A DNA stretch of 64,000 nucleotides from Draconibacterium mangrovi (lineage in GTDB: Bacteria > Bacteroidota > Bacteroidia > Bacteroidales > Prolixibacteraceae). Position 1 is the stretch's first letter. Each line of letters opens with the position of its first letter. Shown one piece after another: positions 3,536 to 46,892 of the stretch. The notes under the pieces were generated by a model, which was given only the letters and a program-made list of their open reading frames with translations, made no database searches and was not told the DNA's origin. The position numbers and the translations under genes were made by a program. The DNA lies in contig NZ_JAAAGB010000012.1 of NCBI RefSeq assembly GCF_010586825.1, positions 1 to 64,000 of the forward strand. The letters are read 5' to 3'.

Positions 3536-3540
3536 TACCA

Positions 3541-3640: not shown

Positions 3641-3691
3641 ATTTCGATATTAAATCGGTATAAATAGTAAAAAATTAAAAGCAACATACTG

Positions 3692-4960: not shown

Positions 4961-4979
4961 TCATTTCTGAAAAAGGATC

Positions 4980-5018
4980 CCGGACTTTGGTCGTTTTTAA
5001 GAGAGGACCAAAGTCCGG
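4980..5018 (+). terminator. 13-bp perfect hairpin downstream of purD
   Basis: CCGGACTTTGGTC (4980-4992) is perfectly complementary to GACCAAAGTCCGG (5006-5018) around a 13-base loop. There is no T-run after the stem; the only T-run (GTTTTTAA) is inside the loop. It may be a transcription end or RNA-stability element rather than a classical intrinsic terminator. Confidence 0.5.
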
Positions 5019-5056
5019 AGTCCCGGAAACCCTGAATTGTTGAGAAGCAAAATGGC

Positions 5057-16319: not shown

Positions 16320-16408
16320 AAAATCCCTTTTTAAACTGAAGTTAATCAGTACATTAAATACTAAATTTTAAAACTGCGGGATATTCGATTGATATTGAAA
16401 AATGCGAT

Positions 16409-16465
16409 TGTTTTAGCGTTTTTTTCATGTGGTTGCAATCAATCTCAAATCTTTCCACGTAGCGG
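16409..16465 (-). promoter_or_regulatory. candidate SAM-II-like riboswitch in the metK leader
   Basis: The minus-strand transcript begins with a stem GTGG/CCAC enclosing GATTTGAGATTGATTGCAA, followed by ATGAAAAAAACGCTAAAA. The order GATTT, ATTGCA, a closing arm, an A-rich stretch and GCTAAAA matches the SAM-II core as I remember it. The long-range pairing of the pseudoknot is not clear by eye, so the identification rests on motif order, position upstream of metK and the promoter directly before it. Confidence 0.42.
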
Positions 16466-31818: not shown

Positions 31819-33165
31819 ATGAAAAAACTACTTTCTATTGCAACCTTATTCTTGATTGCACTTAGTTTTGCCGGCTGCTTTGGTGGTGGCGGGAGAGGAA
31901 ACGGAGAGCTGACAGGAGTAGAAAGAAGGCAGCGATTTAAAGAAACCCAACCCCTGGGAATGGTATACGTTCGCAGAGGAAGTTTCAATATCGGGCCTAG
32001 CGATGAGGACGCAAGTAGGGCAGGTGTACCAACAAAGACGGTATCGCAAGAACCATTTTGGATGGACGACACCGAAATAACCAATAACGAATATCGTCAG
32101 TTTGTAGAATGGGTAAAGGAATCGATGGCTCGTCGAATGTTAGGCGACCAGTATCCTGAATTTATGATTACCGAAGACAGAAAAGGGAATATTATCGATC
32201 CTCCACAGATCAACTGGAATGAAAAGATTGACTGGGAAGACCCTGATATGCAAATGGCAATGGAAGATCTTTACTTGCCTGAAAACGAGCGTTTCTTTGG
32301 CAAAAAGGAAATAGATACCCGTAAACTGATTTACGAATATTGGTGGGTTGACCTGGATCAGGCAGCCAAAAGAAGTAACAGTTATAACTACGAAACACAA
32401 CGTTACGAAGGTAATGTTTACAACGAGGAAGGCGATCTTGTTCCAATCGAGAACCGTTCTTCGTTTATGATGCAGGATCAGGTGCATGTTTATCCTGATA
32501 CACTTTGCTGGATCAGAGACTTTACCTATTCGTACAACGAGCCGTTGGCAACACGCTATTTCTGGCATCCGGGATTTGATGAATATCCTGTTGTAGGTGT
32601 TACCTGGAAGCAGGTAAATGCATTCTGTAACTGGCGTACTAAAATTCAGACGGATTACTTGTCGGAAAAAGGGGAACCAACATTGATGGCTTACCGTTTA
32701 CCAACCGAAGTAGAGTGGGAATATGCTGCCCGTGGTGGTAAAGACTTCTCGATGTATCCTTGGGGAGGTTATTATACCCGCGACGAAAAAGGGGTATTCC
32801 TGGCCAACTTTAAGCCACTTCGCGGAAATTATGTTGAAGATGGCTCAATTGCAACAATAAAAGTAGGAAGTTACGATCCGAATGAGTACGGATTATACGA
32901 TATGGCCGGTAACGTTGCAGAGTGGACAAGCACTGCGTATGACGAAGCCGGTTACAATTACTTTAGTGATTTAAACCCTACCTTTACATACAATGCCCGC
33001 AAGGATGATCCGGCTGTGATGAAGCGTAAAGTGATAAGAGGTGGTTCGTGGAAAGATATCTCGCAGTTTGTGCAGGTTTCTGCACGTAATTACGAATATC
33101 AGGATACGACTAAATCATACGTAGGTTTCCGATGCGTTCGCTCTACTTTTGGCGAAGAATTTTAG
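31819..33165 (+). CDS. gldK: gliding motility/T9SS lipoprotein GldK (PorK)
   Basis: GldK/PorK is an outer-membrane lipoprotein of the T9SS that forms a periplasmic ring with GldN/PorN. The 448-residue protein has a lipobox (FAGC, Cys20) and a formylglycine-generating-enzyme-type fold: GMVYVRRGSFNIGPSDED, FWMDDTEITNNEYRQFV, RLPTEVEWEYAARGG, YDMAGNVAEWTS, VIRGGSWKD and YVGFRCVRS. It serves a structural role; the FGE fold is not expected to be catalytic. gldL follows after 30 bases. A close paralogue is encoded after gldN at 36687. Confidence 0.95.
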   Translation: MKKLLSIATLFLIALSFAGCFGGGGRGNGELTGVERRQRFKETQPLGMVYVRRGSFNIGPSDEDASRAGVPTKTVSQEPFWMDDTEITNNEYRQFVEWVKESMARRMLGDQYPEFMITEDRKGNIIDPPQINWNEKIDWEDPDMQMAMEDLYLPENERFFGKKEIDTRKLIYEYWWVDLDQAAKRSNSYNYETQRYEGNVYNEEGDLVPIENRSSFMMQDQVHVYPDTLCWIRDFTYSYNEPLATRYFWHPGFDEYPVVGVTWKQVNAFCNWRTKIQTDYLSEKGEPTLMAYRLPTEVEWEYAARGGKDFSMYPWGGYYTRDEKGVFLANFKPLRGNYVEDGSIATIKVGSYDPNEYGLYDMAGNVAEWTSTAYDEAGYNYFSDLNPTFTYNARKDDPAVMKRKVIRGGSWKDISQFVQVSARNYEYQDTTKSYVGFRCVRSTFGEEF

Positions 33166-33195
33166 TATTTAAAACAAAACTTTATACCAAACGAT

Positions 33196-34104
33196 ATGAA
33201 TCTGGGAGAACTATTTAAAACTAAGCGCTGGAAAACATTCATGGGGTATGTTTATGGATGGGGGGCAGCAGTCGTTATGGTTGGTGCCTTGTTCAAACTT
33301 GAACACTGGAAAGGCTCCAGCGAGTTATTAACCGTAGGTTTGCTTACAGAGGCATTTATATTTTTCCTCTCAGCATTTGAGCCTCCAATCAGTATTCCTG
33401 AATGGGATAAGGTATATCCGGAATTAAATGAAGACTACGAGCTTGAGGAAGTAAAAGAGTTGAGAACCAGCAACAAAAGTAATGGTTTGGAAACACTTTT
33501 TGGCAGCTCGGAGCTTACACCGGAACTGATGGACCGTGTTGGAAAAGGATTAGCAGAATTAAGTAATACTGCCAAGGGAATAAGCGACATATCTTCGGCT
33601 ACACTTGCCACCGATATGTATGTTAAAAACCTGGGATCGGCTTCAGAATCGATGAACTCTTTTGCCCAAATTAACAACAAGGCAAACGAATCGATTAACA
33701 GTTCAGTGAGTACCTTAGTTGATTCCTATTCTGTTGCAGCAAGTCAGCTTACTCAAACCGGAAAAAATCTTTCTGCCGTTTATCAAAAATCATCAGAGAT
33801 TATATCGGGTGAATTGGAGAATATTGGAAGTAGTTCAAAACAATATTCAGGGAACTTGGAAAGACTGAATAAAAATTTAGATAGCCTGAACAGCAATTTC
33901 GAAAACCAACTTAAAGATACTCAGGATCAATTCAAAGCCAATCAGAGGTTTAACCAGGATCTAGCTGAAATGAACAGCATCCTGACCTCTTCGGTTGATG
34001 AATTGAAAAAGTATAAAGAAAATGCTGAATCACTCAACAAAAATCTTGAAGCCTTAAATACCATTTACGGCAACATGTTGGGTGCAATGAGCTATAAAAA
34101 ATAA
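33196..34104 (+). CDS. gldL: T9SS motor protein GldL
   Basis: GldL/PorL is the inner-membrane proton channel half of the T9SS motor. The 302-residue protein has two membrane helices at about 16-33 and 44-62 with charged residues inside or at their ends (Lys34, Glu52 in LLTEAFIFFLSAFEPP, Glu62); the acidic residues of the second helix are the candidates for proton coupling. The rest is a long cytoplasmic, helical, low-complexity region rich in S, N and Q with coiled-coil character. It is 11 bases before gldM. Confidence 0.95.
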   Translation: MNLGELFKTKRWKTFMGYVYGWGAAVVMVGALFKLEHWKGSSELLTVGLLTEAFIFFLSAFEPPISIPEWDKVYPELNEDYELEEVKELRTSNKSNGLETLFGSSELTPELMDRVGKGLAELSNTAKGISDISSATLATDMYVKNLGSASESMNSFAQINNKANESINSSVSTLVDSYSVAASQLTQTGKNLSAVYQKSSEIISGELENIGSSSKQYSGNLERLNKNLDSLNSNFENQLKDTQDQFKANQRFNQDLAEMNSILTSSVDELKKYKENAESLNKNLEALNTIYGNMLGAMSYKK

Positions 34105-34115
34105 AGTCCTAGCGT

Positions 34116-35723
34116 ATGGGTGCAAAGTATTGTCCGGAAACACCGAGGCAAAAAATGATAAATCTGATGTACATTGTACTTACCGCAATGTTAGCTCTTA
34201 ACGTTGCGGCTGAGGTACTTGAAGCGTTTCGTGTGGTAGACAGTAGTTTACTGCAAACGCTCGAGGCAGTGGACATGCAGAATGCGCAGATCTATTCTTC
34301 GTTTGATCAAGCTTATATCGAAAATCCAACCAAAGTTCAGGAATGGAAAGATAAAGCTGATCAGCTAAAAAGTAGATCGGAAGAAATGATAAACTACGTT
34401 GCGGCATTAAAAGACGAAGTTGTTGCTTACTCCGGCGAGAAGCCGGTAAATGAAGATAACCCGATGTATGAAGAAGGTTATTATCATACAAAAGTAGACG
34501 GATCGGTTGTTGAAGTTGCCAAGAAAGATGACATGAATGGCCCGTCGGAATTACTGATCACCCAGAAAAGAGCAAACGATCTTAAAAACGCCATTATCGA
34601 ATATCGTGAGTTTCTTTCTTCATTGGTGAACGAGGATGACAGCGAACTTCGCGAGTTGATTATGAGCGAGCTTAAAACTTCAGACCCCGAGAAAGGTTCG
34701 AAAGGAGAAGGCAACTACAAAACATGGGAATCGGAGCACTTTGAAGATAAGCCTTTAATTGCGGTAATGACCTTGCTGTCTAAAATTCAGATCGACGCGA
34801 AAAACTCTGAAGCATCGGTAGCAAAATATTTGTATGCTGAAATTGATGAAGGCTCATTTAAGTTTAACCGTTTGAAAGCCCGCGTTATTGCCAATTCGAA
34901 TGTAGTTCTGATGGGCGACGAATATAAAGCTGAAGTTTTCCTTGCCGCAGAAGATACTACACAGCAACCAATTATCATGATAAATGGTAAAGAGGTTGAA
35001 GTTAAAGATGGCAAGGCAACCTATATCGGGAATACCAGCCAGGCAGGTAAATTTACCTGGGACGGTTTAATTAGATACAAAATGCCGGGAGGAAATTATA
35101 AAAATTATCCTTTTGAGCAGGAATATCAGGTGTCAGAGCCAACAGTAACAATGTCGGCCACCAAAATGAACGTGTTTTACAAAGGTCTGGATAACCCGTT
35201 TGATGTGGGTGGAGGAGCCATCCCGAATGAAGATCTTGAAGTTCAAATGACCAACGGAAAGGTTACCAAACGAGGTGATACATATATAGTAGTACCAACT
35301 GACCTTGATGAAATGGGGCGTAATACTAAAGTAAGTGTTTACGCAACAATTAACGGAAGCCGACGTTTGATAGGTACTACCGATTGGCGCGTGAAACGTG
35401 TTCCCGATCCCGTAGCACAAATTAATGGACAGTCGGGTGGCGATATTCGTAAAGAAGTTTTACAGATTCAGGATGGCGTTTTGGCGGTGCTTGAAGATTT
35501 CGATTTTGAATTTGGTTACAAAGTTACTCAGTTTACAATGGAAACCACAAGCGGTGGGTACACCAATCGTTATCCTGCCAATTCGAATCGTTTTACAGCA
35601 GAACAAAAAAATGCGCTGAAGAATGTAAATGTAAATAGTATAGTTTATATAGGAGATATTAAGGCTTTAGGAGATGATGGAACTACAAGGGATCTCGACC
35701 CAATATCATTCAAAATAAAATAG
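34116..35723 (+). CDS. gldM: T9SS motor protein GldM
   Basis: GldM/PorM spans the periplasm and couples the GldL motor to the GldKN ring. The 535-residue protein starts with the conserved segment PETPRQKMINLMYIVLTAMLALNVAAEVLEAF, containing the single membrane helix (about 15-33), then a helical periplasmic domain and several beta-rich domains, ending in a family-typical YIGDIKALGDDGTTRDLDPI. It lies between gldL and gldN with gaps of 11 and 6 bases, so it is part of the operon. Confidence 0.95.
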   Translation: MGAKYCPETPRQKMINLMYIVLTAMLALNVAAEVLEAFRVVDSSLLQTLEAVDMQNAQIYSSFDQAYIENPTKVQEWKDKADQLKSRSEEMINYVAALKDEVVAYSGEKPVNEDNPMYEEGYYHTKVDGSVVEVAKKDDMNGPSELLITQKRANDLKNAIIEYREFLSSLVNEDDSELRELIMSELKTSDPEKGSKGEGNYKTWESEHFEDKPLIAVMTLLSKIQIDAKNSEASVAKYLYAEIDEGSFKFNRLKARVIANSNVVLMGDEYKAEVFLAAEDTTQQPIIMINGKEVEVKDGKATYIGNTSQAGKFTWDGLIRYKMPGGNYKNYPFEQEYQVSEPTVTMSATKMNVFYKGLDNPFDVGGGAIPNEDLEVQMTNGKVTKRGDTYIVVPTDLDEMGRNTKVSVYATINGSRRLIGTTDWRVKRVPDPVAQINGQSGGDIRKEVLQIQDGVLAVLEDFDFEFGYKVTQFTMETTSGGYTNRYPANSNRFTAEQKNALKNVNVNSIVYIGDIKALGDDGTTRDLDPISFKIK

Positions 35724-35729
35724 GTAGTT

Positions 35730-36581
35730 ATGAAGAAGATAGTTGTTTATATAGGAATAGTTGTTTTTGCGCTAGGCATTATGCATAAAGGTGCTGATGC
35801 CCAAATTGTAAACGGAGCCTATAAGCAAAACGATATTTACGAGAAAAAACCAATGCCGTTGGTTCCGGTTCGCGAGGCAGATGTTTTCTGGCAGAAGACA
35901 CTTTGGCGTGTTATCGATTTGCGTGAAAAAATGAATATTCCGCTGTATTATCCAACAATACCCATTGCCGATCGTACAAACCTGATCTCGTTATTGCTTA
36001 AGGGTATCGAAAGTGGTCAGATTACTCCGTATGACGCGCAGGCCGATGATGATTTTAAAATTCCGATGAGCTTTGCACAGGTTAAAGCAAGATTTGGTGC
36101 GGAAGCTAGAACCGAGGAGAAAATTGACTTTGATACAGGTGAACGGACACAAGTTCAGGTTCAGGGCGAAATTCGCCCAACCGAGATCAAGCAGTACATG
36201 GTTAAAGAACAGTGGTATTTTGATAAACAAACATCTACCTTAAACGTACGTATTCTTGGTATTTGCCCAATTCGCGAATATATGCGCGAAGGCGATACTT
36301 CAGGACAGCCACAGCGGCAAAAAATATTCTGGATTTATTATCCTGAAGCGCGCCCATTGCTGGCTACCAACGTGGTTCAAAATCCATACAACGAAGCACG
36401 TCAGCAATCTTTCGACGACCTGTTCGTAAAACGTATGTTTAACAGTTATATCGTGCAGGAGTCGAATATTTACAACAACCGCGAAATCAGTTCCTACCTG
36501 GTAGGAAAAGATGCGATGTTGGAATCAAAACGAATTGAAGACGAGATTTTTAATTACGAACAAGATCTTTGGGAATATTAA
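35730..36581 (+). CDS. gldN: T9SS ring protein GldN (PorN)
   Basis: GldN/PorN is a periplasmic protein that assembles with GldK. The 283-residue protein has a signal peptide (residues 1-24, ending DA-Q) and the family motifs ADVFWQKTLWRVIDLREKMNIPLYYP and ESNIYNREI-type (VQESNIYNNREISSYLVGKDAMLESKRIEDEIFNYEQDLWEY). It is the last gene of the porP-gldKLMN run; a strong terminator lies directly behind it. Confidence 0.95.
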   Translation: MKKIVVYIGIVVFALGIMHKGADAQIVNGAYKQNDIYEKKPMPLVPVREADVFWQKTLWRVIDLREKMNIPLYYPTIPIADRTNLISLLLKGIESGQITPYDAQADDDFKIPMSFAQVKARFGAEARTEEKIDFDTGERTQVQVQGEIRPTEIKQYMVKEQWYFDKQTSTLNVRILGICPIREYMREGDTSGQPQRQKIFWIYYPEARPLLATNVVQNPYNEARQQSFDDLFVKRMFNSYIVQESNIYNNREISSYLVGKDAMLESKRIEDEIFNYEQDLWEY

Positions 36582-36596
36582 TGCGCTAACCAGCAT

Positions 36597-36631
36597 AAAA
36601 AAAGCCTTATGTTGTCATAAGGCTTTTTTTT
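36597..36631 (+). terminator. intrinsic terminator of the gldKLMN operon
   Basis: AAAGCCTTATG and CATAAGGCTTT form the stem around TTGT, followed by a T-run. Confidence 0.9.
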
Positions 36632-36686
36632 GAAACAATTTTAAAATCAATAAGGCGTTTAGAAATGTAGCATCGAATATCGATTG

Positions 36687-38048
36687 ATGAGAAAAACCAT
36701 AACATACTTGTTCATACTGGCGCTTTTTCTTGCCTCGTGCAGGAACGAAAGCAACAAATACCTTAAATTAGGTAAAGGAACAAGTGAAAAATGGTTTGAG
36801 CCAACACCTCACGGAATGGTTTATGTGCCAAGAGGTGCCTACAACCTTGGGCCAAACGATGATCAGCTATATGCCGTAACACAAAGCCGAACGGTATCAA
36901 CAGAAGCTTTTTGGATCGACGATACCGAAATTACAAATGATGAATACCGGCAGTTTGTATATTGGGTACGCGATAAAAAAGCACGCGAACTTCTTGGACA
37001 AACCTATACCGATTTCCTGATAACAGAAGATAAATACGGTGCCCCGCTGGAAGAGCCGGAAATAAACTGGGAAGAGCGAATTGAATGGGACGATCCGGAG
37101 TATCAAATGGCCATGGATGAATTGTATCTCCCGGAATACGAACGTTTTAATTACAAGAAGGAAATTGATACCCGTAAACTGGTATACGAATATTATTGGA
37201 TTGACTATAAACAAGCCGCAAAACGTAGCAATGCCTATAATTACGAAACGCAACGTTATGAAGGTTCTGTTGTAAATTCAGATGGCGAGGTAGTTCCCAT
37301 TCAAAACCGTAGTTCATTTTTGATGCACGAATCCGTGCCGGTTTATCCCGACACGCTGTGTTGGATCAGAGATTTTGCTTACACTTACAATGAGCCTTTT
37401 ACAATCAAATATTTTTCACACATTGGATTTGATGATTATCCGGTTGTTGGAGTAACATGGGATCAGGCGCGGGCTTTCTGTAACTGGCGTAATAAATTGC
37501 AGGATTTTGCCTTTACCCGTTCTGATGAAGCGCCGGCACACGAATACCGCCTGCCAACAGAAAGTGAGTGGGAGATTGCAGCGCGTGGTGGTATGCACAA
37601 CACCATGTACCCGTGGGGGAGTTATTATACACGAAGTGTTAGTGGGTGTTTTGTAGCCAATTTTAAGCCCTTGCGCGGAAATTATGTTGCCGATAGTCCA
37701 ACTACCACAACAGCCATGAAAGTGGGTTTATTCGATCCTAATCCTTACGGCGTTTACGATATGGCCGGTAATGTTGCCGAGTGGACCTCTACCGCTTTTT
37801 TTGAAGCCGGCTACGATGCTATCGATGATTATAATCCGGAAATTCAGTACAATGCACGTCCCGATGACCCGGCCGTAATGAAACGAAAGGTTGTTCGGGG
37901 AGGATCGTGGAAAGACATTGCCTATTTCATACAGTCGGGTACGCGTACTTTTGAGTATCAGGACACCGCAAAATCATATGTCGGATTCCGATGCGTAAGA
38001 ACCTCTTTCCGCGATGATTTGGGCGGCCGTCGCAGTATCCAGGAATAA
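36687..38048 (+). CDS. second GldK-like lipoprotein (FGE-fold), GldJ/GldK paralogue
   Basis: The 453-residue protein is a close paralogue of GldK at 31819. It shares ITNDEYRQFVYW, EIDTRKLVYEYYWIDYKQAAKRSNAYNYETQRYEG, PTESEWEIAARGG, YDMAGNVAEWTSTAF, AVMKRKVVRGGSWKDI and YVGFRCVRTSF in the same order. The lipobox is LASC (Cys about 18). It has an extra C-terminal basic-polar tail (RDDLGGRRSIQE). It is separated from gldN by a terminator but shares its direction, so it could have its own promoter. Its role may match GldJ, the FGE-fold gliding lipoprotein of Flavobacterium. Start is the ATG at 36687; a TTG precedes it. Confidence 0.85.
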   Translation: MRKTITYLFILALFLASCRNESNKYLKLGKGTSEKWFEPTPHGMVYVPRGAYNLGPNDDQLYAVTQSRTVSTEAFWIDDTEITNDEYRQFVYWVRDKKARELLGQTYTDFLITEDKYGAPLEEPEINWEERIEWDDPEYQMAMDELYLPEYERFNYKKEIDTRKLVYEYYWIDYKQAAKRSNAYNYETQRYEGSVVNSDGEVVPIQNRSSFLMHESVPVYPDTLCWIRDFAYTYNEPFTIKYFSHIGFDDYPVVGVTWDQARAFCNWRNKLQDFAFTRSDEAPAHEYRLPTESEWEIAARGGMHNTMYPWGSYYTRSVSGCFVANFKPLRGNYVADSPTTTTAMKVGLFDPNPYGVYDMAGNVAEWTSTAFFEAGYDAIDDYNPEIQYNARPDDPAVMKRKVVRGGSWKDIAYFIQSGTRTFEYQDTAKSYVGFRCVRTSFRDDLGGRRSIQE

Positions 38049-38081
38049 ACTTACTTCTCAGGTATTTCTCTAATTCTCTTT

Positions 38082-39920
38082 TCAGAACATCAAACTCAAT
38101 CCGCCGAATACGGTAATTTCAGGCATGGTATAATTGCGGTTTACCGCATAATCCGTACTCAACAGATTTTCTCCGCTAACATATAGTTTTACATTTTTTG
38201 TAAGGTTGTAGCTTGCCTTTACATTCACCAATGTGTAGCTTTCCTGGTTGGTAACCGGCGTTGGGTCGTTATCCAAACCCGACACATGTTGTATATTGGC
38301 TACCAGCAGCAGTTTCTTTATGCGGTATGATGCATTTAGGAACAGGTGATGTTCCGGCGTAGCATAAACCGGATTTTTCATGTTGGTATAACTGTATGTT
38401 GCATTCAATGTCAGTGCTTTTGTTGGTGTTGCATCCAGCGAGAATTCGATTCCTTTATTCGAAACCTCTCCGGTATTCTGATAACCGTTTGGCTGACCTG
38501 TATTAACAATCAGGTTATCGCCTTTAATCAAAAAGGCGGTAAGTTCAGTTCGCATCGTACCATTGAAAAAGGTTTGCATTACGCTTGTTTCGTAATTCCA
38601 GATCGATTCCGGGTCGAGATTGGGATTGGGGCCCCACATAAACAGTTCGCGCATTGTAGGGCTTCTAAAGCCTTTTGAAATGGTTCCTTTCCATGTGGTA
38701 GAAGGCGAGAATGAATGGGCAAACCCAAGCGATGGAATCCATACCGAACCATATTCGCTGTGGTTATGGTAACGAAGACCAGCGTTGATGATCAGTTTTT
38801 CGCCAATGTTTTGTTGTGAAAACAGGTAGGCACCAAGTTCGGTAATGGTAGTGTCAGCAAAGGTCAGACCCTTTCCACCCATCGCAAAAGTATTTCCAGC
38901 ATCCCCCCCATAATTCATCAAGTCAATTCCGGCGGTAAGCTTGTTTCCCTCAAAAAACTGAAAGGTTTCGTACAGATTTAATCCGTAGTTATGGTCGTTG
39001 GAATGAAAACCATCAGTGACTTCGTGTTCCCCAAAATTGTAGAAAAGCTTCAGTGCTCCTGATGCTTTTTCAAAGTTATTTCGCAACGAAAACGATCCGT
39101 AACCACGCAAAATATCTATTGTTTCTCCCGCCGAAGCATTCAGGGTGTCAGGACCGGGATCAGATGCATCAAAAGCTGCCACACTAAAATCCGCAGCAGC
39201 ATCAAAATGCTCGCTGATCTGGTAACCCAGCTTCAGGTATCCGTTGGTTATTTTGAAATCAGAATTGGGGCGGTGGCCATCAGTCTGGTCATGATTTCCT
39301 GAAATAAATACGCTAAACTTATCCTTTTTGAAACCCACTGATCCCATGTATTTCTGCGTGTTGTACGATCCGTACGAAATGCGGGCATTGCCATTAACAC
39401 CTTCGGTATCCTGTTTTTTTGTGATAATGTTGATTACACCTCCCATAGCATTCGATCCGTACAGAATCGACGCAGGTCCACGAATTACCTCCACGCGTTC
39501 AACATCCGAGGCTACGTATGAATCGGGAAGAGGATGCCCCATAATCCCCATAAACTGCGGGTGCCCGTCGATGAGCATTAAAACGCCGGTGGTTGGACTG
39601 CCGCCAATTCCGCGAATTGAAATCTGCCCTGCTGATCCGGCTGCAACACCAAAACCGGTAACTCCACGCTCGGTAACAAACAAACCCGGCACCCGGCCAT
39701 TTAAAATAGGCAGTAGTGCCGACTCATCACTTTCCTCAATTTGCGTGCGGTTAACAACTGAAACCGCCATTGGAACATTGTTGCGGTTTACCTGTACCTG
39801 CGTTCCGGTAACCACCACTTCGTTAATTGTTATGGTGTCGTTGGTTTCAAAGCGCATTTGTGCACTGGCAATTCCTTGAACGAAGAGAATGATGAAAAAA
39901 CTGAAGATAAATATTCGCAT
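38082..39920 (-). CDS. TonB-dependent outer-membrane receptor
   Basis: A 612-residue TonB-dependent receptor for active uptake of a chelate or metal complex across the outer membrane. It has a signal peptide (residues 1-20), a plug domain with the TonB-box-like INEVVVTGTQ and IRGIGGSPTTGVLMLIDGHPQ, the conserved RVEVIRGPASILYGSNAMGGVINIITKK, and a C-terminal barrel ending in GGLSLMF. It is a small BtuB/FepA-like receptor with no SusD partner, which points to metal or cofactor uptake rather than glycans. Two copies of an operator-like palindrome lie just upstream, next to a NikR-like regulator gene. The ligand is unknown; nickel, another metal, or cobalamin are candidates. Confidence 0.88.
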   Translation of the reverse strand: MRIFIFSFFIILFVQGIASAQMRFETNDTITINEVVVTGTQVQVNRNNVPMAVSVVNRTQIEESDESALLPILNGRVPGLFVTERGVTGFGVAAGSAGQISIRGIGGSPTTGVLMLIDGHPQFMGIMGHPLPDSYVASDVERVEVIRGPASILYGSNAMGGVINIITKKQDTEGVNGNARISYGSYNTQKYMGSVGFKKDKFSVFISGNHDQTDGHRPNSDFKITNGYLKLGYQISEHFDAAADFSVAAFDASDPGPDTLNASAGETIDILRGYGSFSLRNNFEKASGALKLFYNFGEHEVTDGFHSNDHNYGLNLYETFQFFEGNKLTAGIDLMNYGGDAGNTFAMGGKGLTFADTTITELGAYLFSQQNIGEKLIINAGLRYHNHSEYGSVWIPSLGFAHSFSPSTTWKGTISKGFRSPTMRELFMWGPNPNLDPESIWNYETSVMQTFFNGTMRTELTAFLIKGDNLIVNTGQPNGYQNTGEVSNKGIEFSLDATPTKALTLNATYSYTNMKNPVYATPEHHLFLNASYRIKKLLLVANIQHVSGLDNDPTPVTNQESYTLVNVKASYNLTKNVKLYVSGENLLSTDYAVNRNYTMPEITVFGGLSLMF

Positions 39921-39930
39921 TATTTAAGTT

Positions 39931-39966
39931 TATTGTGTTACGTATTAATTTAATCGTGTTACTATT
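39931..39966 (-). promoter_or_regulatory. two operator-like palindromes upstream of the TonB receptor
   Basis: TATTGTGTTACGTAT (39931-39945) and AATCGTGTTACTATT (39952-39966) are two near-copies of ATTCGTGTTACGAAT with centres 21 bases (two helical turns) apart. They lie between nikR-like and the receptor, 10 to 46 bases before the receptor start, where a repressor would block transcription. Confidence 0.55.
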
Positions 39967-39979
39967 TGGCCAAAAAAAA

Positions 39980-40381
39980 TTATTCGGCTTTACTCATTAC
40001 CAATTTTCCGTGCTGTATCCCTTTCAGGCTGATGAGTTGCTCTGAAATTTCTGTTAGTTTTCGCGAAGGGCCTTTAACAGCAATAATTTCCATGTAATTC
40101 ATCTCGTTTAAATAAAAGCCCTGCGACGAAAGAATAAACTCCTTGTGTTCGTATTGAATCTCGGCCGATTTCTTTAGTATATCCTTTTTCTCGTGATTGA
40201 AAACAATGATAACTGCACCGGCCACAATGTTATCACATTTCCACTTTTCCTCCACTAAATTCTTTTCGATTAGGTGACGGATAGCGCGCGAACGGTTGGC
40301 AAAAGCATTGTCCTCAACATACTTGTCGAGAGCTTCAAGGAGTTCTTCATCCAACGAAACGCCAAACCTGGAAACGGCCAT
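39980..40381 (-). CDS. NikR-like ribbon-helix-helix regulator lacking nickel ligands
   Basis: The 133-residue protein matches NikR in length and layout: an N-terminal ribbon-helix-helix (MAVSRFGVSLDEELLEALDKYV, SRAIRHLIEKN) and a C-terminal ACT-like regulatory domain (FNHEKKDILKKSAEIQYEHKE). Aligned without gaps to E. coli NikR recalled from memory, the four nickel ligands His76, His87, His89 and Cys95 correspond to Tyr77, Gly88, Tyr90 and Tyr96 here, so none is kept. It is therefore unlikely to sense nickel in the square-planar way and may use another ligand. The ATG at 40381 is chosen because it starts directly at the DNA-binding domain; a longer frame to 40639 lacks any domain. One operator-like palindrome lies 19 bases upstream. 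Confidence 0.82.
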   Translation of the reverse strand: MAVSRFGVSLDEELLEALDKYVEDNAFANRSRAIRHLIEKNLVEEKWKCDNIVAGAVIIVFNHEKKDILKKSAEIQYEHKEFILSSQGFYLNEMNYMEIIAVKGPSRKLTEISEQLISLKGIQHGKLVMSKAE

Positions 40382-40399
40382 GGTAATACTAATTTCAAT

Positions 40400-40414
40400 A
40401 TTCGTAACACGAAT
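40400..40414. promoter_or_regulatory. operator-like palindrome between nikR-like and osmC genes
   Basis: ATTCGTAACACGAAT has 6-bp perfect arms around AAC. Its reverse complement is the consensus of the two sites upstream of the TonB receptor. The location between divergent genes suggests autoregulation and possibly control of the OsmC gene. Confidence 0.55.
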
Positions 40415-40497
40415 GTATGAAAATAGAATGAATCTGCGGTAGTAAAATCCGGATTGTTCAAAATGCTTTATCTTTAAACCAAATAAATTGATAGGGT

Positions 40498-40902
40498 ATG
40501 ACAACGATAAAAACCATTTACCTGGGCGAATTACGCACCGAAAATGAGCACCTGCAATCGGGTAACAAAGTGATAACTGATGCGCCGACTGATAATCGTG
40601 GAAAAGGAGAATATTTCTCGCCAACCGACCTGCTGGCAACGGCTTTGGGAAGTTGTATAATGACCATTATGGGAATAAAAGCCCGCGATAACGGAATTTA
40701 TATTGAGGGAACTCAGGTTGATGTAACGAAAATAATGGCTTCCGATCCGCGACGTGTAGCCGAGGTGGTTGTGGAGTTTACTTTTCCGGCAAAAAACTAT
40801 ACCGACGAAGAAAAGCAGCTGGTTGAAAGTGTCGCCGGCGTTAGTCCGGTTCCCTTAAGTTTGCATCCTGATCTGGTTCAAACCATCAAGTTCAACTGGT
40901 AG
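40498..40902 (+). CDS. OsmC-family protein with a single cysteine
   Basis: The 134-residue protein has the OsmC/Ohr fold: a strand-rich N-terminus, PTDLLATALGSCIMTIMGIKARDNG with the peroxidatic cysteine (Cys52 region), and a C-terminal helix and strand pair ending AGVSPVPLSLHPDLVQTI. In typical OsmC and Ohr the second cysteine lies at the C-P-V-x-x-S-L position; here it is Ser. A two-cysteine peroxidase mechanism would therefore not work, so the role may differ (thiol-dependent or another hydrolytic activity). It is transcribed away from the nikR-like gene across one palindrome. Confidence 0.8.
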   Translation: MTTIKTIYLGELRTENEHLQSGNKVITDAPTDNRGKGEYFSPTDLLATALGSCIMTIMGIKARDNGIYIEGTQVDVTKIMASDPRRVAEVVVEFTFPAKNYTDEEKQLVESVAGVSPVPLSLHPDLVQTIKFNW

Positions 40903-40904
40903 CT

Positions 40905-42833
40905 TCAGTGTTTGATAAAACGGCCTTGAAAAGTTCTGTCAGCCAGTTCGGCTTTTAGCAGATATATTCCGGGAACGAGGACGGTGATATTTATTTTATT
41001 CGGATTTATGGTGAAATGTTTTACTTCCGCACCATTCATATCAAAAATACGGATGCCAGTGATTTCCATCGACGAAGAAAATCGTAAGCTGATTTCAGTG
41101 GTAGCCGGATTGGGGAAGATTTCTATGGTTTGGGTATTGGTTTCTGCCGGAATACCAACAATCTCCTGAGTTTCCGATATTAGCCAGAGATCAGGATCAA
41201 TCACCATTTCAGCAACATGGAACTCGGTGTCGACGATAAATTGTTGTTGGTTGCTGGTGTGATTCAGTCTTACATCGAGCGAATCGGTGCGACCGGCAGT
41301 GTATAAACGCACCGGTACCGGCATTTCGAAAAAATCTACCGATTGATGCGTTGTAGTTTGACTCAGCGTTATCAAGGTTTTTCCTCCGTCACCCGGTTTA
41401 AAACTGGCGGAATAAACCGGATAACCTTCGCCATAGTGCCAGTCGTTAAAAAACTCAGTCAGGCTGGTATCGGCAACTTGTTCAAAGTGTTGTATTACGT
41501 CCTCTGAATGCGCAAAACCATTGGCAACTGCCGGATCGTTGAAATAGTTTTTCAGACCCTGAAAAAAGGTATCATCACCAATTACCCAACGCAGCATGTG
41601 TAGTAAATAACCTCCTTTTGCATACGATAAGCGACTGCTAAAAATGCGTGCCACTGATGTGGTATCGGCAACATAAACTGAGCCATCGGGCTGCTGTTTT
41701 ACCTGGTCGGAATACACTTGTTTCCACACCGGCCACCAATCGGTTTCAATATTTTCGTACGAAAGTCCGGTTAAGTAGGTAGCAAATCCTTCGTTTAGCC
41801 ATATATCCTGCCACGAGCCCGGCGTTATGTAATCGCCAAACCACTGATGGGCCAGCTCGTGTGCAATTAATCCGAAGCCAAAATTCCCCATAAAACTCAT
41901 GGTTTGATGCTCCATTCCGCCGCCCCAGCCAAACTGTGCGTGGCCATATTTTTCGGCCGCAAAAGGATAATCTCCAACAAGGTTTTGGTACAATTGCATA
42001 ATTTCGGCAGTTACCGGAGTTTTACTTTTGGCATCTTCAAGATCCTCAGGGTAAACATAATTCAGTATTTCAATGGAGTCGCCATTTTCCGTTTCCAGGT
42101 AATCTGAATAGCGTTCATAATCAGTTACGGCAATCGCAACCAAATATGTTGCAATCGGAAAACGATGTTCCCAGTGCATGGTTCTGGTGGTGTCGCTCAA
42201 TTGCTCGGAAACCAATATGCCGTTACTTGCTGTTTTATACTTTACTGGTGTGGTAACAATCACATCAATCGAGTCGATTTTATCGGCCAGCGACTGCTTG
42301 CAAGGCCACCATTCCAAAGCACCGTAAGGTTCCGAAAGAGTCCATAAAACCGGTGTAAATTCACTGCCGTGAAAACTGGTTTCAAAAGAACCGAAGCCTG
42401 ATGTTGTGGGAACTCCTTGGTAAAAAACCGAAACAGAATCAAGCTGATCGGGCAAAAGAGATTCAGGCAGATCAACTTCAAGTTTATTATTCTGATGGGT
42501 GAACGTGACGGTTTTATTTCTGATTAGAACCGAATCGACAGTTAAGGAATCTGAAAGATCAAATTCAATCGTGTTCAGTAAGCCCGTTTGGCTCTTAAAG
42601 TGGGTGGTAACTTCCCCGGAAATGTAACGAACCGCCGGATCGACCTGCCATTCCATCCGCTGATAGATAAAGTCGGTAAGGCTGTTATTCTGGCTCTCGA
42701 TAAAATTCGATTTTAGCACAAAATTCCGGCTTTCTTCCAATGCTAATTTGTCTGAGATGAACAGTTCATTTTCCTGGGCCATAACATTGACGGAAATGTA
42801 AAGAAAGAGAAGGATGTGGACGAATCGTATCAT
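40905..42833 (-). CDS. M1 family metallopeptidase with T9SS C-terminal sorting domain
   Basis: A secreted aminopeptidase-like enzyme of family M1. The 642-residue protein has a signal peptide (residues 1-20, VNVMAQ), an N-terminal beta domain, the exopeptidase-loop motif GGGMEHQ (304-310) in place of GAMEN, the zinc site HELAHQW (325-331) with the third ligand in LNEGFA (Glu348), and a C-terminal Por-type sorting domain (about 565-642) with IEIFPNPATTEISLRF, IRIFDMNGAEV and PGIYLLKAEL. It should be exported by the T9SS whose core is encoded about 5 kb away. A short gap separates it from the OsmC gene, with the stops converging at 40902-40905. Confidence 0.93.
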   Translation of the reverse strand: MIRFVHILLFLYISVNVMAQENELFISDKLALEESRNFVLKSNFIESQNNSLTDFIYQRMEWQVDPAVRYISGEVTTHFKSQTGLLNTIEFDLSDSLTVDSVLIRNKTVTFTHQNNKLEVDLPESLLPDQLDSVSVFYQGVPTTSGFGSFETSFHGSEFTPVLWTLSEPYGALEWWPCKQSLADKIDSIDVIVTTPVKYKTASNGILVSEQLSDTTRTMHWEHRFPIATYLVAIAVTDYERYSDYLETENGDSIEILNYVYPEDLEDAKSKTPVTAEIMQLYQNLVGDYPFAAEKYGHAQFGWGGGMEHQTMSFMGNFGFGLIAHELAHQWFGDYITPGSWQDIWLNEGFATYLTGLSYENIETDWWPVWKQVYSDQVKQQPDGSVYVADTTSVARIFSSRLSYAKGGYLLHMLRWVIGDDTFFQGLKNYFNDPAVANGFAHSEDVIQHFEQVADTSLTEFFNDWHYGEGYPVYSASFKPGDGGKTLITLSQTTTHQSVDFFEMPVPVRLYTAGRTDSLDVRLNHTSNQQQFIVDTEFHVAEMVIDPDLWLISETQEIVGIPAETNTQTIEIFPNPATTEISLRFSSSMEITGIRIFDMNGAEVKHFTINPNKINITVLVPGIYLLKAELADRTFQGRFIKH

Positions 42834-42868
42834 TGCTTAAAGATACAATTCCGAATGAAGATTTAAAG

Positions 42869-42904
42869 CAAAAAAAAGCGAACCATAATGGTCCGCTTTT
42901 GATT
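42869..42904 (-). terminator. intrinsic terminator of the ROK kinase gene
   Basis: On the minus strand AAAAGCGGACC pairs with GGTTCGCTTTT around ATTAT, followed by T-rich sequence. Confidence 0.75.
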
Positions 42905-42921
42905 TTATAAGGATATACTTT

Positions 42922-43899
42922 TTATTTTTCAAGCTCTTTCCAGGCCAGGGCGCTGGCTCCAACAATAGCTGCATCACCAGGCTTCAATTCCGATGGAAGA
43001 ATCTTGATTTTATCTTTAAAGATAGGAAGCAAGTGTTTTTCCATGTGCTTTTTAGTTGGTTTAAAAATGTAATCACCGGCAGCAGTTGGTCCGCCAAACA
43101 GGAATACTGCTTCAGGGCTTAGGTGGTGAACGGTGTCAGCCAAACCTTGTCCTAACCATGCACCTGTTTTTTCAAATACTTCCAAAGCAATTTTGTCGCC
43201 TTTTTCAGCAGCGTCGTAAATCATTTTCGAGTCCAGCTCGTTAAACGATTTATCGGCCAGAATACTGTCGGTTGCGTTGTACTGAACCATCAATTCAAAA
43301 GCAGTACGTTTCATCCCTGGAGCCGAGCAATAAGCCTCTAAGTGGCCCAGCGCTGTACATCCGCACAAACGTCCGCCAGGAATAAGTGTGGTGTGACCAC
43401 ATTCTCCGGCAAAACCATCATTTCCGTATACCAGGTCGCCATTTACAACAATACCACTACCAACACCGGTACCAAGGGTGAACATTACAAAGTTTTTCAT
43501 GTCTTTGGCACCACCGTAAATCATTTCGCCAATGGCTGCTGCATTTGCATCGTTTGTAAGTGCAAGTGCTTCCATTTCAGGGAAGTGTGCACGAAGTAAT
43601 TCAACTAAACGAACCACTCCTTTAAACGATAAGTTTGGAGCATATTCAATTGTTCCGCTGTAGTAATTACCATTTGGAGCGCCAATTCCTATTCCAACTA
43701 CTTCTAAATTCTCATTCAATAACTTTACTGATTTGATCAGTTCTTTAATGGCTGCTGCCAAATCTGAGATGTATTGGTCGATATCGCCATGCGATGGTGT
43801 AGAAATATTGTCTTTAACCATCACGTGTCCTTCCGCGTCAACTACGCCAATGGCAGTATTTGTTCCGCCAATATCAACTCCAATTGCTACTTTTTTCAT
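42922..43899 (-). CDS. ROK family sugar kinase (glucokinase type)
   Basis: The 325-residue protein carries the ROK ATP motif AIGVDIGGTNTAIGVVD, the catalytic region LTNDANAAAIGE (Asp), GTGVGSGIV and the zinc motif region GHTTLIPGGRLCGCTALGHLEAYCS with a His and cysteines. It has no DNA-binding domain, so it is an enzyme, most likely ATP-dependent glucokinase or a related hexose kinase. It is monocistronic: an exact -7 box upstream and a terminator downstream. Confidence 0.9.
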   Translation of the reverse strand: MKKVAIGVDIGGTNTAIGVVDAEGHVMVKDNISTPSHGDIDQYISDLAAAIKELIKSVKLLNENLEVVGIGIGAPNGNYYSGTIEYAPNLSFKGVVRLVELLRAHFPEMEALALTNDANAAAIGEMIYGGAKDMKNFVMFTLGTGVGSGIVVNGDLVYGNDGFAGECGHTTLIPGGRLCGCTALGHLEAYCSAPGMKRTAFELMVQYNATDSILADKSFNELDSKMIYDAAEKGDKIALEVFEKTGAWLGQGLADTVHHLSPEAVFLFGGPTAAGDYIFKPTKKHMEKHLLPIFKDKIKILPSELKPGDAAIVGASALAWKELEK

Positions 43900-43950
43900 T
43901 TTTTATTAAGCTTATTAATTTAGATTTTATCTGCATTTTCTGTGTGTTAG

Positions 43951-43958
43951 CAAAATTA
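43951..43958 (-). promoter_or_regulatory. -7 box of the ROK kinase gene
   Basis: The minus strand reads TAATTTTG, an exact match to TAnnTTTG, about 52 bases before the ATG. Confidence 0.4.
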
Positions 43959-44087
43959 AAAATATTATGCAATTGGAAGGGAGCCGGACATCGGTTTATG
44001 GCTATTTATTTTGAATTCAATTAAGCTTTAACGTTTTTTAAGATGAATCTGAATTTCAGAACGCCAATCAACGATGAATTTTAATCT

Positions 44088-44095
44088 TACCTTTG
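44088..44095 (+). promoter_or_regulatory. -7 box of yidD
   Basis: TACCTTTG is an exact match to TAnnTTTG, 13 bases before the yidD ATG. Confidence 0.4.
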
Positions 44096-44108
44096 TTTCT
44101 TAATAATT

Positions 44109-44360
44109 ATGAAAACAATTGGTAAAGCAATTCTGAAGTTTTTGGGGTGGATACTTTTAATTCCGATTTATATTTACAAATACGGAATATCGCCACTTAC
44201 TCCGGCATCGTGCCGGCACGTTCCCACATGTTCGGAGTATGCAGTAAAAGCCATAAAAATCCATGGTCCGTTTAAAGGATTTGTGCTTACTGTCAGGCGA
44301 CTTTCAAAATGCCACCCATGGGGAACGCATGGTTACGATCCCGTTCCGCCAAAAGAATAG
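44109..44360 (+). CDS. yidD: membrane protein insertion efficiency factor YidD
   Basis: The 83-residue protein is a complete YidD, a small membrane-associated factor that assists YidC-dependent insertion. The family core is all present: YKYGISPLTPASCRHVPTCSEYAVKAIKIHG, then CHPWGTHGYDPVPPKE with the invariant Cys residues. The N-terminus is a hydrophobic helix. Its usual neighbours rpmH, rnpA and yidC are not here. It is followed by a short gap and the zinc transporter operon. Confidence 0.95.
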   Translation: MKTIGKAILKFLGWILLIPIYIYKYGISPLTPASCRHVPTCSEYAVKAIKIHGPFKGFVLTVRRLSKCHPWGTHGYDPVPPKE

Positions 44361-44393
44361 CGGGTTAAAAAGCATTTAGCTGAGTTCAATTTA

Positions 44394-44421
44394 TTTATTC
44401 CATAACATAAAACTAAATTTG
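44394..44421 (+). promoter_or_regulatory. promoter of the znu operon
   Basis: TAAATTTG (44414-44421) is an exact -7 match, with T-rich TTATTTA at the -33 position. No Zur-type operator was identified by eye. Confidence 0.45.
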
Positions 44422-44459
44422 TGGAACATTGTTAAAATGAGACACTAAAAAATACATTG

Positions 44460-45335
44460 ATGAAGAGAATAATCCTTTTATTGGTTGTGGCTACTTTGTT
44501 TGCATCGTGCGGGAACCAAAAGAAATCAGATAAAAGTACCGCGGCCGACGTTGTTACTGTGAGTATTTTACCACAAAAAACGTTTGTAGAGAAAATTGCG
44601 GGCGATGATTTTGAAATAAACCTGCTTATACCGCCCGGATCGAGCCCGGCAGCCTATACACTTTTGCCTTCTCAGTTGAAAGATATTTCGCGTTCGGCTG
44701 TTTGGTTTCGGATTGGTTACATTGGTTTCGAACATTCGTGGGCCGATAAAATTAAGCAGGCCAATACCAAAATGAAGGTGGTAAATATTTCGGAAGGACT
44801 GGATTTGATTGCCGACAAAATGGAGCAACACGGCGACCATGTGCATATTGATGGTGTTGATCCGCACGTGTGGCTGTCGCCGGTTATGGTAAAACAAATG
44901 GCAAAAGTTATTCTCGATGAACTTTCGGCGTTAAAACCCGAAAAGGCAGGTGATTACAATGCCAACTACATGCGTTTTGTGAAAGAATGTGATCAGCTTC
45001 ATATCGATCTTAAAAATCAGTTGAAAGATTACGCCGGACGAAAATTTATCGTTTTTCACCCGAGCCTTTCGTACTATGCCCGCGAATATGGATTAGAGCA
45101 GTACTCGCTTGAAACCGGCGGAAAAGAGCCAACGCCTCAACACTTGCGCGAAGTTGTTGACATTGCCAAGTCAGAAGGCATAAAAGTTATTTATATTCAA
45201 AGTGAGTTTGACCGGGAACATGCCCGCGTTTTTGCCGATGAAATTGGAGGTAAAATCATTCAGGTAGCACCGCTTAAACCTGAGTGGGAAGAAAACCTGA
45301 GAACTATGACTCAAATTCTGATCGATAATTTTTAA
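44460..45335 (+). CDS. znuA: zinc/manganese ABC transporter substrate-binding lipoprotein (ZnuA-like)
   Basis: A cluster A-I metal-binding protein that delivers Zn or Mn to the transporter. The 291-residue protein has a lipobox (FASC, Cys18 or so), metal-ligand region with GDHVHIDGVDPHVWLSP (a short His-rich loop), VFHPSLSYYAREYGL and QSEFDREHARVFADEIGG, all typical. The His-rich loop favours zinc. Start is the ATG at 44460, one codon after a TTG. The gene overlaps the ATPase gene by one base. Confidence 0.9.
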   Translation: MKRIILLLVVATLFASCGNQKKSDKSTAADVVTVSILPQKTFVEKIAGDDFEINLLIPPGSSPAAYTLLPSQLKDISRSAVWFRIGYIGFEHSWADKIKQANTKMKVVNISEGLDLIADKMEQHGDHVHIDGVDPHVWLSPVMVKQMAKVILDELSALKPEKAGDYNANYMRFVKECDQLHIDLKNQLKDYAGRKFIVFHPSLSYYAREYGLEQYSLETGGKEPTPQHLREVVDIAKSEGIKVIYIQSEFDREHARVFADEIGGKIIQVAPLKPEWEENLRTMTQILIDNF

Positions 45336-46081
45336 TGGATCCGTTAATTAAAATAGAAAATCTGACGGTGGCCTACGATAAGGTGCCGGTGCTGGAAAAT
45401 GTCGATCTCGAAATTCGGGAGAACGATTTTCTGGGTGTAATCGGCCCTAACGGTGGAGGCAAAACTACCTTGTTAAAAGCCATTTTGGGGTTAAAGAGAC
45501 CGGAATCGGGGAAAATTCATTTCTCGAAAGAAATGAGCGGCCGGAAAAAACCAATTGGCTACTTGCCACAGGTACGAGATATCGACCGGAAATTCCCGAT
45601 CACTGTTTTTGATGTGGTACTTTCGGGTGGTATTATGCAAAATCGCCAAAATGCCAAGAGTATTGCAAAAGATAAAGCGGAAGCATTGCTGGAAGAAATG
45701 GGTGTTGCCGGTATTCGGAACAAAGCCATTGGCGAATTGTCGGGCGGGCAAATGCAACGTGTGTTTTTATGCCGTGCTTTGTTAAGCGATCCTAAATTGC
45801 TCATCCTTGACGAGCCGGATACTTTTGTGGATAACCGTTTTGAAGGCGAACTTTACGAAAAGTTGGAGAAGTTAAATGAAGAGCTTGCCATACTTTTGGT
45901 TTCGCACGATGTGGGTACCATAACGAGCTGCGTAAAATCTATTGCCTGTGTAAATAAGTACCTGCATTATCATCCGAGTAACGTAATTTCGCAAGAGCAG
46001 CTGGCCAATTATAATTGCCCGATTCAAATCATCTCGCATGGCGAAATTCCGCATACCGTTTTAAAGCACCATCATCATTAA
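45335..46081 (+). CDS. znuC: zinc/manganese ABC transporter ATP-binding protein (ZnuC-like)
   Basis: The 248-residue ATPase has Walker A (GPNGGGKTT), the ABC signature LSGGQMQR, Walker B (LLILDEPDTFVD) and the switch His (SHDVGTI). The C-terminus ends in a tetrahistidine (HTVLKHHHH), suggesting metal sensing or storage at the transporter. The gene starts on the stop of znuA and ends one base before the permease gene. Confidence 0.93.
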   Translation: MDPLIKIENLTVAYDKVPVLENVDLEIRENDFLGVIGPNGGGKTTLLKAILGLKRPESGKIHFSKEMSGRKKPIGYLPQVRDIDRKFPITVFDVVLSGGIMQNRQNAKSIAKDKAEALLEEMGVAGIRNKAIGELSGGQMQRVFLCRALLSDPKLLILDEPDTFVDNRFEGELYEKLEKLNEELAILLVSHDVGTITSCVKSIACVNKYLHYHPSNVISQEQLANYNCPIQIISHGEIPHTVLKHHHH

Positions 46082-46082
46082 T

Positions 46083-46892
46083 ATGAACGCGATAATAGAA
46101 TTATTTTCATACGATTTTTTTCAGAAAGCCTTTTTGGCTGCTGTGTTTGCCAGTATCTCGTGCGGAATTATTGGGGCTTACATCGTTTCGCGGCGCATTG
46201 TGTTTATAAGTGGCGGAATAACACACGCTTCGTTTGGCGGAATCGGCTTGGCATTTTTCCTCGGCTTTAATCCCTTGCTGGGTGCCGTGCTTTTTGCTGT
46301 TTTATCGGCTTTGGGCATTCAGTTTTTTACCAAAGTAGCCGAAATAAGGGAAGATTCTTCCATTGCCATTTGGTGGTCGCTGGGAATGGCGCTGGGAATT
46401 ATTTTTGTTTTCCTTACACCCGGATATACACCAAACCTGATGAGCTACCTGTTCGGGAATATTCTTACGGTAACTACTTCCGAGCTTTGGTGGATGTTTA
46501 TGCTGAACTCGGTAATTGTACTATTCTTTGCCGTATTTCTGCGTAAAATCCTTTACATCGCTTTCGACGAAGAGTTTGCACGCACAGCAGGTTTACCGGT
46601 GGCTTTGTTTAATTACCTCATTATGGTGCTCATTGCACTAACCGTTGTGTTGAATATCAGGGTAGTGGGTATCATTCTTATTTTGTCGTTGCTGACCATA
46701 CCGCAGGCAACAGCCAATTTATTCACCAACGATTTTAAACGCCTGCTGGTGTATTCGTCGTTATTTGCTTTTGTGGGTACAATCGCCGGTTTGTTTATTT
46801 CCTATTTTCTGAATATTCCTTCGGGAGCCGCTATCATTTTTACGCTGGTTATTATTTTCGGAATACTTCGTTTGGTTAAAACGTTTGTGTAA
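46083..46892 (+). CDS. znuB: zinc/manganese ABC transporter permease (ZnuB-like)
   Basis: The 269-residue protein has eight to nine hydrophobic helices of the ABC-3 family and the conserved blocks FLAAVFASISCGIIGAYIVSRRIVFISGGITHASFGGIGL and RVVGIILILSLLTIPQATANL. It would form the channel with ZnuC. Its stop overlaps the start of a small cysteine-rich gene. Confidence 0.93.
   Translation: MNAIIELFSYDFFQKAFLAAVFASISCGIIGAYIVSRRIVFISGGITHASFGGIGLAFFLGFNPLLGAVLFAVLSALGIQFFTKVAEIREDSSIAIWWSLGMALGIIFVFLTPGYTPNLMSYLFGNILTVTTSELWWMFMLNSVIVLFFAVFLRKILYIAFDEEFARTAGLPVALFNYLIMVLIALTVVLNIRVVGIILILSLLTIPQATANLFTNDFKRLLVYSSLFAFVGTIAGLFISYFLNIPSGAAIIFTLVIIFGILRLVKTFV

Follow-up and report, generated by a model that had tools for sequence, protein, structure and literature searches.

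NikR proteins from E. coli, H. pylori, and P. horikoshii (PDB 2bj1, 1q5y, 6mrj) share a two-domain layout of RHH plus ACT. According to the accessible parts of the sources, H. pylori NikR binds nickel in a square-planar His3Cys site formed by His88', His99, His101, and Cys107 (PMC9860126), and the delta-proteobacterial NikR operator was predicted as GTGTTAC-N13/14-GTAACAC, with the half-sites mostly inward and some outward (PMC545781). In H. pylori, the TonB receptors FrpB4 and FecA3 are under the control of nickel-responsive NikR, as described in the available part of PMC11247825. The literature drawn on here consists of the accessible parts of PMC545781, PMC9860126, PMC11247825, PMC11770544, PMC7583248, and PMC11796402.

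We analyzed a stretch of 64,000 nucleotides from Draconibacterium mangrovi (contig NZ_JAAAGB010000012.1, positions 1 to 64,000; hereafter the window). Its minus strand encodes a NikR-type regulator of 133 aa (39980..40381), followed in the same direction by a TonB-dependent receptor of 612 aa with a BtuB-class barrel (38082..39920); an OsmC-like gene (40498-40902) is divergent from the regulator. The regulator has the layout and fold of the known NikRs but none of the four His3Cys ligands, and in a literature search whose coverage took in few subscription journals no paper on a NikR lacking these residues came up. Automatic annotation names such ligand-poor proteins nickel-responsive NikR. On balance, and by a narrow preference, we read the regulator as a NikR-descended autorepressor with a rebuilt ACT pocket, most likely responding to a non-metal-ion effector in nickel-related uptake. 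The family is a natural experiment, in which the signal of a metal sensor was changed or dropped while the target gene, the DNA code, and the spacing of the operators stayed fixed.

The assignment of the regulator rests on domain search, alignments, and predicted structure. The initial annotation had recognized a NikR layout, RHH plus an ACT-like domain, at 39980-40381, and this was borne out by matches to RHH_1 and NikR_C. The protein also passed the NCBIfam NikR equivalog cut-off (131.1 bits vs 105). Its nearest named relative is the regulator of Draconibacterium orientale (L011), with 99% identity. In the AlphaFold model, the ACT domain is confidently predicted (block means of pLDDT 93-97 over residues 51-130), and 83 of its residues can be laid over E. 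coli NikR in the nickel-bound form with an rmsd of 1.2 A. The superposition is ungapped, because the two ranges (window residues 51-133 on E. coli NikR 50-132) both span 83 residues. Another NikR-like ACT protein is TM1266, a putative FeFe-hydrogenase regulator; its 80-residue chain (PDB 2nzc) is too short to include an RHH domain. The start of the regulator, MxVxRFGVSL, is kept in relatives, and RFGVSL, which begins the RHH domain, does not vary among 53 sequences in an alignment that takes in Desulfovibrio; a paralogue in L073 has RIGVSL instead.

At the four nickel-ligand positions, where NikR has its His3Cys site, the window regulator carries Y77, G88, Y90, and Y96. We set these positions by three comparisons: an alignment to P. 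horikoshii NikR, an alignment of 62 loci from a search of named genomes plus the window, and the superposition on E. coli NikR, for whose ligands we assumed the residue numbers. The absence of all four ligands had first been proposed from a gapless by-eye alignment, along with an alignment to characterized NikR as a check. In that alignment the ligand positions were again occupied by Y77, G88, Y90, and Y96, and the superposition agreed, so the absence is confirmed.

The replacing residues are themselves conserved. Among homologues of the regulator, the 120 listed highest have G88 in 117 cases, Y/F96 in 118, F/Y77 in 115 (Phe in 76), and Y90 in 108; these figures come from an unselected set, not from another set of 140 proteins preselected for Gly or Ser at position 88 and for Tyr, Phe, or Leu at 96. 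We further compiled a 26-locus set, consisting of 25 fetched loci and the window, whose regulators all carry Y, F, or L as residue 96. Position 88 uses all four Gly codons across these loci. Among 333 listed relatives, none has all four ligands, two have three, and 133 have none, in a sample that is biased because it joins the best 120 from three separate searches, all of which started from ligand-poor proteins.

Could the protein still respond to a metal through another site? Such a regulator, sensing Ni2+ or a different metal through, for example, C49, H124, or H36, seems to us unlikely. C49 and H124 reach a frequency of 1.00 and H36 one of 0.94 among 159 aromatic-pocket sequences, while 14 HHHC/HHQC sequences have C49 in 4, H124 in 12, and H36 in 3; C49 and H36 therefore became fixed in the aromatic-pocket group, a point in favor of such a site. 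A metal signal would also fit the many histidines kept by the receptor and the operator found ahead of nickel-cofactor genes in relatives, both described below. But some Bacteroidota regulators that retain the His quartet already have C49 and H36, and 12 of the 14 have H124, so none of the three is a clear replacement; and the Phe found at position 77 in most of the best-listed homologues is unable to ligate metal. The comparison of the 159 with the 14 sequences revealed no clear replacement His/Cys metal site. The loss of the usual nickel site thus withstood the search for canonical ligands elsewhere in the ACT domain that the initial annotation had named as its refutation.

The lack of a clearly substituting His/Cys site also speaks for an autorepressor with no effector at all, in which the old site is packed with side chains, the tetramer always binds DNA, and the receptor is held at a low set level. 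We regard this as a real, though clearly less probable, alternative. As packing predicts, the residues that occupy the site vary from clade to clade: sister groups have FGYY, QQYC, ALHC, or FQNC, and the paralogue has IRIH. It is also in keeping with the proposal, in the accessible part of PMC9860126, that nickel increases rigidity throughout the H. pylori protein. Packing leaves unexplained, however, why positions 88, 96, and 77 are so strict in the aromatic group (117, 118, and 115 of 120). We favor an effector-binding pocket over a packed site because the pocket residues are kept so strictly. The differing residues of the sister groups, which speak against one shared ligand, count against this reading. 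In our preferred reading, the His3Cys site of a nickel-responsive ancestor would have given way to a pocket that is conserved and largely aromatic (F/Y77, G88, Y90, Y/F96), operator binding would no longer be switched by Ni2+ at the ACT interface, and the regulator would most likely sense a non-metal-ion effector held by that rebuilt interface.

Bacteroidota regulators comprise HHHC types and an altered group that includes QQYC (Coprobacter, Tannerella), AFRC, ALHC, FQNC, and FGYY/YGYY. We built a tree of 57 rows with the four ligand columns removed. On this tree, 43 altered rows grouped together with a support of 90/71, and 2 changes were needed to account for the HHHC state. L072, where the regulator match covers residues 95-132 alone, was left out of the later regulator alignments and the tree; the tree also lacks L053 (truncated at the contig start) and the Desulfovibrio loci L062, L064, and L066-L069. 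An intermediate is found at L080 in G033, where an IHHC regulator is accompanied by a receptor of the same family and by the operator.

Is the regulator then a decaying relic, in hosts that have abandoned NiFe hydrogenase? In 32 genomes, a NiFe hydrogenase match above cut-off, in many cases partial, was present in 6/6 HHHC/HHQC genomes and 2/19 aromatic-pocket genomes (G004 and G012), as well as in 0/3 genomes with other C96 types and 2/4 with QQYC, a trend that a relic would produce. The tie between ligand loss and hydrogenase absence is clear in these counts but not independent on the tree (2 independent pairs), with one or two evolutionary changes underlying it. The matches in G004, G012, and the two QQYC genomes count against our preferred reading. 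In its favor, searches of the genome of the window for NiFe hydrogenase, urease, LarC, NicO, CbiM, and CODH gave no match. From 325 pairs, after exclusion of those saturated or too close, median dN/dS was 0.070 for the RHH domain (133 pairs) and 0.094 for the ACT domain (80 pairs). The ACT domain is thus under purifying selection and is maintained, not decaying. A relic is already contradicted by this, as well as by the receptor and the receptor-side operator, both of which adjoin the regulator in 26/26 loci, and we give it hardly any credence.

Operators of the NikR type are found on both sides of the regulator gene. The initial annotation had listed three matched 15-bp palindromes, ATTCGTAACACGAAT at 40400-40414, TATTGTGTTACGTAT at 39931-39945, and AATCGTGTTACTATT at 39952-39966, the last two with centres 21 bp apart. 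Their positions and sequences are exact, but the units proved to be half-sites of two paired N14 operators, the fourth half-site being GTAATAC at 40383-40389, beside the regulator start codon and absent from the earlier list. On the minus strand, the operator at the regulator start reads GTGTTAC-N14-GTATTAC (40383..40410; half-sites 40404-40410 and 40383-40389), and the one between regulator and receptor reads GTAACAC-N14-GTAACAC (39935..39962). Both span 28 bp and follow the pattern GTRTTAC-N14-GTRTTAC. A search of the 64-kb window for this direct repeat with at most one mismatch gave 2 matches, both exact, where 0.06 were expected, and 0/100 shuffles of the window gave two. Across the whole genome, no other direct repeat with N14 spacing matches exactly, so that such sites stand only at the regulator itself and at the receptor. 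Among direct repeats, further targets in the genome were considered and rejected, since the seven with one mismatch did not exceed what the reversed-pattern control gave (9 in total vs 13). Control of the nearby ZnuABC-like genes was rejected as well, as a scan of window positions 34381-46381 (N13 or N14, any orientation, at most one mismatch) found no further pair.

The paired half-sites with N13/14 spacing that mark NikR operators are thus present in the window, with the half-site and spacing of the delta-proteobacterial operator. We conclude that the operator DNA code is that of known NikRs, because half-site and spacing match those predicted in the accessible part of PMC545781. A difference lies in orientation: the receptor-side pairs in the 26 loci are direct repeats, unlike the delta-proteobacterial GTGTTAC-N13/14-GTAACAC. 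NikR of Geobacter uraniireducens binds direct-repeat half-sites; our literature search found no paper on this binding.

Conservation in relatives supports both sites. The best N14 pair on the receptor side had 0 mismatches in 22 and 1 in 4 of the 26 loci; at the regulator start, 24 had a pair with at most 2 mismatches and the other 2 one with 3. The first scan took pair starts within -35..-21 and +405..+424, and a wider N14 scan (-150..+5 and +399..+548) gave the same result, with the best pair of the -150 to +5 region at position -29 in every locus. When gap lengths of 6-26 were compared at up to 2 mismatches, N14 was found in 24/26 loci at the regulator start and 26/26 at the receptor; the runner-up, N7, reached 9 and 8. 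The remainder of the 26 loci (291,100 bp) contained 0 N14 pairs with up to 1 mismatch and 10 with up to 2. Pairs at the regulator start occur in all four orientations with N14 fixed, which fits near-palindromic half-sites, each bound by one RHH dimer, with the spacing constrained. As judged from sequence, then, autoregulation and control of the receptor, both suggested initially, would hold in relatives as well, and the boxes, whose conservation had been proposed as a check, are indeed kept with the gene pair.

In 60 family genomes, exact GTAACAC-N14-GTAACAC was found at 19 places in a total of 13 genomes; the reversed pattern gave 5. At the regulator-receptor locus lie 16 of the 19, a concentration that an effector-free autorepressor would lead one to expect. 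Two others precede different TonB receptors (L082 in G036 and L084 in G044), which such an autorepressor leaves unexplained, and one (L087) lies between frames without evident relation. Outside the aromatic group the operator is rarer: of 36 other loci scanned at the regulator start (-70 to +5), 7 had N13 or N14 as the best pair with up to 2 mismatches, and no Desulfovibrio locus was among them.

We infer that the regulator, retaining the role of an operator-binding autorepressor, acts as a tetramer, in which two RHH dimers would sit on two quasi-palindromic GTRTTAC half-sites placed 21 bp, or two turns, apart. Positioned over its own start and ahead of the TonB receptor gene, the tetramer would repress both.

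The pairing of a NikR-type regulator with a TonB receptor recalls the FrpB4/FecA3 system of H. pylori. The regulator there is nickel-responsive, and the receptor here is BtuB-class by sequence and fold. Its nearest solved relative is BtuB, and PqqU appeared in both the sequence and the fold lists; BtuB (cobalamin) and PqqU (PQQ) both carry cofactors. Identity to these receptors is 18-20%, and the score was far below the NCBIfam TonB-B12 cut-off (159.7 bits vs 599.7). Its model has a mean pLDDT of 70.7, with a poorly modelled plug. Among 40 receptors, His129 and His299 are present in 40, His216 in 38, His210 in 36, His524 in 34, and His120 in 31; His129 aligns with Ser in BtuB. These histidines are common to receptors linked to HHHC regulators and to ligand-poor partners; His120 is found mainly in these, and in 3/11 of the intermediate group. 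The receptor alignments omit L029, L033, and L057, and the second also L056. A strand count from the plug would place these histidines on the outer face, unlike His238 (in 35 of the 40). From these histidines, the substrate is probably a metal or a metal complex. In some relatives, a nucleoside-hydrolase-like protein is encoded right after the receptor (L044:8549-10009, fused to FmdE; L053:2436-3911, identified by BLASTP alone; L072:8069-9043), and in L072 the receptor gene is immediately preceded by a stretch (2635-5916) that encodes a Peripla_BP_2 protein, a FecCD permease, and a protein resembling an ABC ATPase.

The relatives also tie the system to nickel. At the HHHC loci L044, L053, and L058, a receptor of the same family has next to it, or one gene further downstream, a permease whose loop is rich in His, putatively of the Ni/Co type from its context and a match far below the cut-off. 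At L057, another receptor is followed by a protein that we take to be HypD-like and by a NicO match just above the cut-off. A further link comes from the lar genes. Four altered-group genomes have LarC, and in 4/4 an N14 operator lies ahead of a larE-C-B-permease operon: L096 in G008 (regulator YGYY, 1 mismatch), L095 in G007 (FGYY, 2 mismatches), L097 in G019 (ALHC, 1 mismatch, outward), and L073:6649-10580 in G012, where the operator (1 mismatch) is followed by the NikR paralogue IRIH and then larE-larC-larB-permease. The genes were identified first in L073, and those of L095, L096, and L097 by BLASTP to it. Shuffles of the 200 bp upstream gave as good a pair in 1 (L095), 0 (L096), 0 (L097), and 1 (L073) of 1000. 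In G007, G008, and G019, two of which are aromatic-pocket genomes, the sole NikR_C match is the ligand-poor regulator. Five lar stretches (L098-L102) from four HHHC/HHQC genomes had no operator pair with up to 1 mismatch, and the 2-mismatch pairs in L101 and L102 fall inside the larC and larE frames. From these operators, altered regulators appear to control nickel-cofactor genes despite being unable to hold nickel in the manner known from NikR; an effector-free autorepressor leaves their presence at lar operons unexplained.

The initial annotation had concluded that the signal is not nickel in the usual way. This stands insofar as the usual nickel site is lost, but the system is still tied to nickel, because same-family receptors adjoin His3Cys NikR and putative Ni/Co permeases and because the N14 operator precedes larECB in four relatives. 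With the ligands lost and the lar link pointing to a persisting role of nickel, the regulator has probably given up canonical Ni2+ sensing while remaining within nickel biology. Under our preferred reading, the receptor, with its metal-binding look, would likewise stay within a nickel-related uptake system.

The boldest effector candidate, which would be sensed instead of Ni2+, is the nickel-pincer nucleotide (NPN). LarA enzymes use it as their organo-nickel cofactor, and the BtuB-class receptor would import NPN or a precursor. The D. mangrovi genome encodes a single LarA homologue (L076:5912-7198; Lar_N 34.3 bits; 139 bits to PDB 4nar, which from its residue numbering appears to be GntE2). 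NPN-binding residues are R75, K184, and H200 in LarA and R41, K164, and H180 in GntE2, as given in the accessible part of PMC7583248. In the D. mangrovi protein, the one homologue in which they were checked, R44, K161, and H177 correspond to 4nar R41, K164, and H180 by hand count. LarA homologues above cut-off occur in 19/19 aromatic-pocket genomes, LarC in 3/19. The lar link, this pattern of LarA without LarC, and the cofactor-type receptor speak for NPN, and the arrangement would resemble the economy of B12: the same operator would serve larECB in some species and a BtuB-class receptor, while Draconibacterium-like species, with a LarA homologue and no LarC match, would live by salvage. It is disfavored by the differing sister pockets and by the QQYC genomes, which fit poorly because a LarA homologue is present in only 1/4, and we consider it a long shot. 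If the effector is a nickel cofactor, the locus would open NPN regulation and transport to study. To our knowledge, no NPN-responsive regulator and no NPN uptake route was known before, and each would be the first. The lar literature covered, in its accessible parts, gave no description of NPN regulation or transport.

Several further features were noted. In the D. mangrovi genome, which has no LarC match, the LarA homologue adjoins what is presumably a PfkB-type kinase (L076:4788-7198, contig C25), and a kinase 77% identical lies beside the regulator in two rumen loci, L055 (6457-7536) and L056. A ZnuABC-like metal ABC transporter occupies 44457-46892 of the window, and its ATPase ends in a C-terminal histidine run (LKHHHH). 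Two related proteins, which we take to resemble GldJ/GldK, flank a gldLMN-like set at 31819-38048. A cobalamin or Ni/Co riboswitch near the gene pair was considered and not found, the Rfam matches of the window at gathering score being tRNA and SAM-II. The SAM-II riboswitch (16403-16464) lies upstream of a gene at 15066-16319, presumably for an S-adenosylmethionine synthetase-like protein.
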